From assembly GCF_026151205.1 (NCBI RefSeq), contig NC_087073.1, forward strand, positions 1,700,001 through 1,764,000: a stretch of 64,000 nucleotides of DNA, read 5' to 3'. Below, in pieces: positions 55,023 to 58,000 of the stretch (its first letter is position 1; each line of letters starts with the position of its first letter). Source of the stretch: Bolinopsis microptera. Lineage: Eukaryota > Ctenophora > Tentaculata > Lobata > Bolinopsidae. Position numbers and translations under genes: made by a program. The notes under the pieces are model-generated. The model saw only the letters and a program-made list of their open reading frames with translations, did not search any database and had not been told where the DNA came from.

Positions 55023-58000
55023 ATGACTCTACAGAAGAGTTCATCAAATAACGGGGTGGACGACAACAGCCGGGCTCTAGCTGCCGAGATCAGGTTTGTT
55101 CTGCCGAGATCAGATTTGTTTAAATTTCCAGAACAACTATAACCAAACTGCTGCAAATCTGCCTCAAGGGAATCGTTAAAGCTTATCTACCATTGAAACA
55201 AACTTCAAACGATCTCTATTCACAGGAAAGCACAGGACCCCTTCAATTTCGAGTCAGTGCGACTGTTCCAGCGAGTGTTCGACAGCGAGTGCCTGGACGA
55301 TGAGCGAGTGCTGACATTTAACGCTGCTGTTGCACTCCTCACCAAGCTGGACTTCAAGTTTTACGGAGACGCCAAGTACCCGCTGTCTCATTACCTCCGG
55401 GAAATTGTGGGATCATGTGCTACTGTTACCTTCCCTAACTTCGTTCAGGTAAACATGTGCTACTGTTACCTTCCCTAACTTTGTTCAGGTAAACATGTGC
55501 TACTGTTACCTTCCCTAACTTCGTTCAGGTAAACATGTGCTACTGTTACCTTCCCTAACTTCGTTCAGGTAAACATGTGCTACTGTTACCTTCCCTAACT
55601 TCGTTCAGGTAAACATATGTTAATGTTACCTTCCCTAACTTTGTTCAGGTAAACATGTGCTACTGTTACCTTCCCTAACTTCGTTCAGGTAAACATGTGC
55701 TACTGTTACCTTCCCTAACTTCGTTCAGGTAAACATGTGCTACTGTTACCTTCCCTAACTTCGTTCAGGTAAACATGTGCTACTGTTACCTTCCCTAACT
55801 TCGTTCAGGTAAACATGTGCTACTGTTACCTTCCCTAACTTCGTTCAGGTAAACATGTGCTACTGTTACCTTCCCTAACTTCGTTCAGGTAAACATATAC
55901 AACTGTTACCTTCCCTAACTTCGTTCAGGTAAACATGTGCTACTGTTACCTTCCCTAACTTCGTTCAGGTAAACATATACAACTGTTACCTTCCCTAACT
56001 TCGTTCAGGTAAACATGTACAACTGTTACCTTCCCTAACTTTGTTCAGGTAAACATGTGCTACTGTTACCTTCCCTAACTTTGTTCAGGTAAACATGTAC
56101 AACTGTTACCTTCCCTAACTTCGTTCAGGTAAACATGTACAACTGTTACCTTCCCTAACTTCGTTCAGGTAAACATGTGCTACTGTTACCTTCCCTAACT
56201 TTGTTCAGGTAAACATGTGCTACTGTTACCTTCCCTAACTTTGTTCAGGTAAACATGTACTACTGTTACCTTCCCTAACTTCGTTCAGGTAAACATGTGC
56301 TACTGTTACCTTCCCTAACTTCGTTCAGGTAAACATGTGCTACTGTTACCTTCCCTAACTTTGTTCAGGTAAACATGTACTACTGTTACCTTCCCTAACT
56401 TCGTTCAGGTAAACATATACAACTGTTACCTTCCCTAACTTCGTTCAGGTAAACATGTACTACTGTTACCTTCCCTAACTTCGTTCAGGTAAACATATAC
56501 AACTGTTACCTTCCCTAACTTTGTTCAGGTAAACATGTGCAACTGTTACCTTCCCTAACTTTGTTCAGGTAAACATGTATTACTGTTACCTTCCCTAACT
56601 TTGTTCAGGTAAACATGTACAACTGTTACCTTCCCTAACTTCGTTCAGGTAAACATATGCGCATGTGAACGTAAACATCATTGTGGTTGTACTGAGTAAT
56701 ATGACTCTGCTAAATAATAATATGACTATGCTAAATAATAATATGAGTATGACTATGCTAGATAATAATATGACTAATGACTATGCTAGATAATAATATG
56801 ACTAATGACTATGCTAGATAATAATATGACTATGCTAGATAATAATATGACTAATGACTATGCTAGATAATAATATGACTAATGACTATGCTAGATAATA
56901 ATATGACTATGCTAGATAATAATATGACTATGCTAGATAATAATATGACTAATGACTATGCTAGATAATAATATGACTATGCTAGATAATAATATGACTA
57001 ATGACTATGCTAGATAATAATATGACTATGCTAGATAATAATATGACTAATGACTATGCTAGATAATAATATGACTAATGACTATGCTAGATAATAATAT
57101 GACTAATGACTATGCTAGATAATAATATGACTATGCTAGATAATAATATGACTAATGACTATGCTAGATAATAATATGACTATGCTAGATAATAATATGA
57201 CTAATGACTATGCTAGCTAATAATATGACTAATGACTATGCTAGATAATAATATGACTAATGACTATGCTAGATAATAATATGACTAATGACTATGCAAG
57301 ATAATAATATGACTAATGACTATGCTAAATAATAATATGACTAATGACTATGCTAGATAATAATATGACTAATGACTATGCTAGATAATAATATGACTAA
57401 TGACTATGCTAGATAATAATATGATTAATGACTAGGCTAGATAATAATATGACTAATGACTATGCTAGATAATAATATGACTAATGACTATGCTAGATAA
57501 TAATATGACTAATGACTATGCTAGATAATAATATGACTGATGACTATGCTAGATAATAATATGACTAATGACTATGCTAGATAATAATATGACTAATGAC
57601 TATGCTAGATAATAATATGACTATGCTAGATAATAATATGACTAATGACTATGCTAGATAATAATATGACTGATGACTATGCTAGATAATAATATGACTA
57701 ATGACTATGCTAGATAATAATATGACTAATGACTATGCTAGATAATAATATGACTATGCTAGATAATAATATGACTAATGACTATGCTAAATAATAATAT
57801 GACTAATGACTATGCTAGATAATAATATGACTAATGACTATGCTAGATAACAATATGACTAATGACTATGCTAGATAATAATATGACTAATGACTATGCT
57901 AGTTAATAATATGACTAATGACCATGCAAGATAATAATATGACTAATGACTATGCTAGATAATAATATGACTAATGACTATGCTAGATAATAATATGGCT

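Follow-up and report, generated by a model that had tools for sequence, protein, structure and literature searches.

Tandem Arrays Spanning 5′ Splice Sites Recur in a Ctenophore Genome

Results

The window analysed here, 64 kb of contig C2 in a 264.65-Mb genome, holds an EF-hand gene and, at 61.7 kb, a second gene (Table 1). The six exons of the EF-hand gene (15.9–58.6 kb) join to an open frame of 251 aa, and a Mnemiopsis leidyi protein (P0002, 81%) is the only named relative of its product. The proteins of relatives run across the exon junctions: P0002 and P0003 read straight through ISLK|ESHV and the junction preceding exon 3, P0001 (181 aa, 98%) through EIR|KAQ, P0001–P0003 through NFVQ|AVS or NFVQ|AIS, and P0001 and P0002 through MMKK|ISDS; P0003 departs from the pattern after MMKK, continuing as if into intron 5. 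Where exon 4 meets exon 5, P0001 reads NFVQ-AVSISISK and Mnemiopsis P0002 reads NFVQ-AISMSISK, both with no insert. The contigs that carry P0001 (950 bp) and P0003 (907 bp) leave no room for introns, and we infer that both proteins therefore derive from spliced RNA. The TR|IYQPG junction of the second gene is likewise uninterrupted in P0005, a 572-aa protein whose contig measures 1779 bp. At the donor-array junctions of both genes, then, the proteins of relatives show no insert. Intron 2 of the EF-hand gene (17129–55016; 37,888 bp) has other open frames inside it; one near 38–39 kb looks RT-like by eye, and a 66-aa piece had no Pfam match.

Table 1. Coordinates of the genes and arrays in the window, and of array-bearing exon ends elsewhere (C1)
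Feature	Position	Strand	Remarks
Exon 1, EF-hand gene	15925-16038	+	Matches N-termini of P0002 and P0003; joined ORF
48-bp array, end of exon 1	16023-16834	+	16 exon bases per unit, 17 copies
Exon 2, EF-hand gene	17039-17128	+	Relatives' proteins; joined ORF
Exon 3, EF-hand gene	55017-55093	+	Relatives' proteins; joined ORF
20-bp tandem duplication over exon 3 donor	55081-55120	+	2 copies, 13 exon bases; GT lost in second copy
Exon 4, EF-hand gene	55226-55448	+	Joined ORF; junction uninterrupted in P0001 and P0002; the unit's exon part has its first copy in the final 35 bases
40-bp minisatellite	55414-56660	+	One copy in the exon, 30 in the intron; CAG|GTAAAC in each
Intron 4, EF-hand gene	55449-58044	+	2596 bp, 97% tandem array
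Second array of intron 4	56722-58030	+	28-bp unit, 49 copies, ends 14 bp before exon 5
Exon 5, EF-hand gene	58045-58164	+	EF-hand; relatives' proteins; joined ORF
Exon 6 and stop, EF-hand gene	58438-58569	+	Relatives' proteins; joined ORF
Exon 1, second gene	61534-61686	+	Weakly Ig-like: Pfam ig E 0.0023, below its cut-off
35-bp array, end of exon 1, second gene	61676-62968	+	11 exon bases per unit, 37 copies
18-bp array, second gene	63035-63155	+	Ends 8 bp before exon 2 (63164)
CDK-like kinase exon end	C1 214 kb		Pkinase E 2.9e-6, below Pfam cut-off
Sushi exon end	C1 428 kb		Sushi E 0.0026, below Pfam cut-off
Sushi exon end	C1 434 kb		Sushi E 1.6e-6
Dynein exon end	C1 849 kb		AAA_7 dynein E 2.2e-7
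Dynein exon end	C1 885 kb		No Pfam match; dynein heavy chains in PDB, 4.5e-7
ADAM-like protease exon end	C1 14.12 Mb		Reprolysin E 6e-4, below Pfam cut-off

Intron 4 begins within a minisatellite, in the usual sense of head-to-tail units of roughly 10–100 bp in several copies: TRF gives a period of 40 bp, 31.2 copies and 95% matches. The unit is composed of the 35 final bases of coding exon 4 followed by GTAAA, as the first-pass annotation had proposed, although the exon is the fourth of six and not the second. The same annotation had the unit copied about 30 times into the intron, and this is what we find: in donor register, one exon copy ending at 55448 is followed by 30 intronic units of exactly 40 bp each. 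Among these units six of the 40 positions vary (9, 11, 12, 13, 15, and 34), and the other 34, GTAAAC included, are invariant. The array is followed by a 61-bp spacer, a 28-bp array, 14 bp, and the acceptor. Since that acceptor (58044) lies outside the 40-bp array, the two splice sites do not both sit in repeat copies, as they would in an intron made by AGGT duplication or one with dual-specific sites. Nor is related sequence found at many loci, as it would be for an introner or a transposon-borne intron; when 187 bp of the array were compared with the whole genome, all of the matches listed (nine) were the array itself. What the junctions do resemble is human F7, where a functional exon-intron junction lies in the first repeat: they are contiguous in relatives, and those of a POLR3A orthologue described below are likewise contiguous against human RPC1.

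The four donor-side cases claimed for the 64 kb are all real, but they are not four independent loci, as those at 16.0, 55.1, and 55.4 kb belong to introns 1, 3, and 4 of the one EF-hand gene. The fourth, at 61.7 kb, opens intron 1 of the second gene, which is 95% tandem array: a donor-side array gives way, after a short spacer, to a second array and then the acceptor. Translation continued through the first donor of the 40-bp or the 35-bp array (55.4 and 61.7 kb) meets a stop inside the first unit. The 48-bp array is in frame and free of stops for about a dozen units past exon 1 (16023–16659), and its later donors, if used, would add blocks of 16 residues; no such blocks are present in P0002 or P0003.

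Arrays of this kind span donors in at least seven genes of the genome, with units of 20–79 bp and up to 44 donor words in a single array (C1:428.6–430.9 kb). Four 40-kb stretches outside the window were chosen by position, unseen; the fourth gave no tested intron. The first contains the orthologue of POLR3A (RNA polymerase III large subunit), in which three of the 11 introns tested have donor-spanning arrays, with units of 37, 50, and 54/78 bp, the 37-bp case amounting to two copies. The exons on either side of all three align across the junctions to human RPC1. The second stretch holds a VWD-type gene (Pfam VWD, C8, Ig, and VWC matches), where none of 18 tested introns, their single boundaries taken as predicted, has a donor-spanning array. 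In the third, beside an ABC-transporter exon, a 15-bp array begins 3 bp inside the intron and is counted as not donor-spanning.

We also inspected the flanks of 15 donor-carrying arrays, taken from the first rows of the word-triple matches described below, with groups at C1 475 kb, 1.10, 1.16–1.17, and 1.97 Mb left out. Six begin at an exon end with protein homology (Table 1); the labels "CDK-like" and "ADAM-like" draw in part on motifs. One gene may account for both dynein exons (36 kb apart), and one for both sushi exons (6 kb apart). For the arrays at 434 and 885 kb the first copy alone was read, and the spacing of later copies comes from word-triple matches. Seven others have no clear coding exon at the first copy (C1 36.6, 374, 761, and 890 kb, 1.68 and 3.11 Mb; C2 2.67 Mb), and for two (C1 4.18 Mb, C2 2.72 Mb) the stretch read stops short of the first copy. 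Upstream of its donor, the dynein exon at L062 (C1:884860–885220) is internally repetitive, in frame, at a period of about 171 bp.

For a genome-wide count, we defined a triple as three copies of a word with 10–40 bases between them, counted on both strands and compared with the word's total and with the word reversed; the triples are not independent, as one array yields many. The donor word AGGTAAGT gave 1347 triples per 10758 occurrences (12.5%) against 11 per 7965 (0.14%) for its reverse, and the donor word AGGTGAGT gave 1187 per 8474 (14.0%) against 183 per 7650 (2.4%). The GT-less donor word AGGAAAGT gave 166 per 10633 (1.56%), with 30 per 9534 (0.31%) reversed, and at least one of its arrays holds a donor as well. 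On the acceptor side, which is represented by the one word TTTTCAGA, there were 136 triples per 32126 (0.42%) against 78 per 15046 (0.52%) reversed, and 87 of 100 among the matches listed come from a single array on C10. Among the matches listed there are seven AGGTAAGT arrays in about 29 Mb and nine AGGTGAGT arrays in about 17.6 Mb, which extrapolate to roughly 64 and 135 per genome, respectively. CAGGTAA triples number 11080 against 210 reversed, a comparison that is less clean owing to 7–8-bp GGTAAC repeats. A further acceptor word, TTTTCAGG, has 21684 single occurrences. Two donor words are thus enriched in tandem triples, and the one acceptor word counted is not, although these counts do not separate the array density of introns from that of the genome background, and the two may differ. 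The enrichment, together with the 187-bp query that found only itself among the matches listed, bears out the earlier claim that the cases are too many for chance.

Individual introns give a similar picture. The tested set comprises 36 introns with flanking exons, from chains that were predicted and then hand-chosen (EF-hand 5, Ig-like 1, POLR3A 11, ABC 1, VWD-type 18); an automatic gene prediction (101 introns) called far too many exons and is left out of the conclusions. An exact duplication of at least 12 bases spans the donor in six of the 36 introns and the acceptor in none (Fisher p 0.025), a deficit of 0 against 6 in a small sample. In these tests, on introns and on words alike, donor-spanning arrays are far commoner in this genome than acceptor-spanning ones, which supports that part of the first-pass annotation.

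Whether arrays fall on donors more often than random placement would put them there is a separate matter. Our null placed the unit at random in the intron and barred it from touching the acceptor; the 38-kb intron 2 was left out and overlapping POLR3A arrays were merged, giving an outside set of 30 introns and 16 arrays and a window set of 5 introns and 7 arrays. Outside the window three of the 16 intronic arrays span the donor, with 2.8 expected (P 0.55). Within it four of the seven do so, against 1.4 expected (P 0.03), in a set that was chosen because of the pattern. When all arrays of at least four copies are taken, five of 11 span the donor, against 2.2 expected (P 0.04). Across 11 arrays the exon contributes between 6% and 93% of the unit, a spread compatible with uniformity (KS p 0.73), and therefore no fixed start point is apparent within the unit.

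The array and the exon it starts from may not be separate entities. In the 40-bp array, units that lie farther from the exon differ more from the exon copy (Spearman 0.51, one-sided permutation p 0.002); the 48-bp array has no such gradient, and the exon part of the 35-bp array is invariant, so that a gradient is not measurable there. The exon 4 copy reads GCT ACT (Ala-Thr), as do 16 of the 30 units, with eight units reading ACA ACT (Thr-Thr), and four relatives all have Thr where exon 4 codes Ala in its array-covered end. Relative to the closest relative, two of three residue differences fall in array-covered exon ends, which make up 17 of 181 residues (p 0.024); in another comparison two of 28 fall in array-covered ends making up four of 310 residues (p 0.042), both comparisons having been chosen after seeing the data. 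These observations suggest that exon and array exchange sequence.

Discussion

The feature is real, recurrent, and more than local, and its most fitting reading is as a genome-wide version of a situation known from a single human locus. Intron 7 of the human coagulation factor VII gene (F7) contains near-identical 37-bp tandem repeats; the first copy carries the genuine 5′ splice site, as it does here, and normally only this upstream-most site is used (PMC6627357). F7 is one locus, whereas in the ctenophore at least seven genes are involved, with units of 20–79 bp and an array that reaches 44 donor words. Human F7 intron 7 also has fewer repeat copies than the arrays here. Other systems share parts of the arrangement. 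Dual-specific splice sites in tandem repeats are described for UBC and VCX3A, where the units bear AG|GT, as ours do, and the authors argue that such expansions do less harm since they can be spliced out (PMC10809524); the repeat copies in those genes bound the intron at both ends, whereas our acceptor lies beyond the array. The gain of introns through tandemly duplicated AGGT segments, as outlined for ATP2A1, fission yeast, and potato, likewise leaves tandem copies with AGGT or an exon-intron boundary (PMC4974935), but it makes a new intron, and what we describe is an existing intron that grows from its 5′ end. Among ordinary intronic minisatellites, some of them linked to splicing, CeRep25B of C. 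elegans also consists of head-to-tail intronic units near splicing decisions (PMC4039745), although here the first copy is coding exon and every unit repeats the donor. In the Hormiphora genome TRF repeats make up 13%, and the repeat and intron passages of that paper do not mention splice sites (PMC8527503); the word "tandem" is absent from the main text of PMC12221973. The open literature, judged by titles apart from the cited papers, offered none on donor-spanning arrays genome-wide and nothing relevant on ctenophore minisatellites.

We suspect that these arrays are ordinary minisatellites of a repeat-rich ctenophore genome that have been filtered by splicing, an account that we hold to be probable, if not assured. 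Short tandem duplications would arise in many places and expand by slippage or unequal exchange. One that falls over an exon end and its 5′ splice site would place additional donors in the intron; if the upstream-most donor is the one used, a rule taken from the human F7 repeats, the mRNA would be unchanged and the array free to grow. Use of the first donor presumably holds in this animal as well. A duplication over a 3′ splice site, on the other hand, would set an acceptor and an exon start upstream of the real one and so add sequence to the mRNA. Acceptor-spanning duplications would then tend to be removed by selection, the donor-spanning ones being nearly silent. The exon copy would stay part of the array, and exchange of sequence between the two could follow. 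Because the upstream-most donor would win, whereas a copied acceptor would come first, the contrast between donors and acceptors most likely means that splicing tolerates extra donors and not extra acceptors. The rarity at acceptors is the firmer result and the part that needs explanation, and selection by splicing accounts for it.

The arrays might instead be born at donors. R-loops, U1-linked transcription stalling, or repair or template switching at 5′ splice sites could make the duplications, and the excess of the two donor words (12.5% and 14.0% in triples) over the GT-less neighbour (1.56%) means that donors might be hotspots; the window excess of four donor-spanning arrays against 1.4 expected and the two-copy cases over donors (EF-hand intron 3 and the 37 bp of POLR3A) point the same way. 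Yet outside the window the count of three against 2.8 expected is that of random placement, the junction falls anywhere in the unit, and the 18 introns of the VWD-type gene yield none. A mechanism starting arrays at exon ends, which the first-pass annotation had proposed, is therefore not required by the data, which leave room for a modest one; we regard donor-targeted birth as unlikely. Similarly doubtful, in our estimation, is a stronger coupling in which ctenophore donors are birthplaces of minisatellites that remain tied to the exon, grow from the exon side, and have unit variants converted into the coding end, rewriting the protein.

The remaining alternatives fare worse. The genome's minisatellites could have a donor-like core (GGTAAC or GTTACC) that seeds arrays independently of splicing, donors being affected through resemblance: seven of the 44 window arrays hold it in their unit (those at 109, 8805, 11529, 13627, 15726, 55414, and 60899), among them the 40-bp unit (GTTACC, in its exon part), and 7–8-bp GGTAAC repeats occur among the CAGGTAA triples. 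Since AGGTAAGT and AGGTGAGT are strongly enriched without containing this core, and it is absent from the 48- and 35-bp units, we find this very improbable. We would put still less weight on the idea that the array is the intron itself, born by tandem duplication of an AGGT-containing exon segment (the Rogers model, with dual-specific sites). Such introns have been described (PMC10809524, PMC4974935), and in every 40-bp unit CAG|GTAAAC is preceded by a pyrimidine-rich stretch containing CTAAC, so that by eye the unit could act as either site; but the true acceptor (58044) is found about 1.4 kb past the 40-bp array and is not a unit copy, and exon 5 directly follows exon 4 in the P0001–P0003 proteins. 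Just as hard to credit is a selected function, by which the spare donors in the arrays would attract U1, shield long introns, or compensate if the first donor were lost. The 34 of 40 positions, GTAAAC among them, that are invariant in 30 intronic units would fit it, but homogenisation accounts for the invariance equally well, and the second copy at 55.1 kb has lost its GT.

What in humans is a curiosity of one locus, F7 intron 7, turns up here as a recurrent condition of an entire genome. This condition provides many natural experiments on the choice of 5′ splice site among identical neighbours, and it offers a way for introns to lengthen from the 5′ end and a path along which coding ends could be altered by intronic repeats. 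It is also a caution for gene predictors, which will encounter runs of identical donors and repeated exon ends.

Other repeats were noted along the way. In three array-filled introns (at C1:3.032 Mb [L042], in EF-hand intron 4, and in the second gene's first intron), the second array stops 3–14 bp short of the acceptor and excludes it. A candidate acceptor-side array at 42880–42983 has a 34-bp unit in 3.1 copies that contains TTTAG|GATGG, and the stretch downstream has no Pfam match. An interstitial CCCTAA repeat lies at 5198–5311 (19 copies, 90% matches), and a search of the window with Rfam at gathering thresholds gave no match. Besides the window arrays with GGTAAC or GTTACC, stretches like CTATGGTAAC are present in L066. 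Finally, one 32-bp donor-bearing unit is arrayed at two distant places, L055 and L059 (C1 36.6 and 761 kb); the flanks are similar, and the unit was therefore copied as a block.
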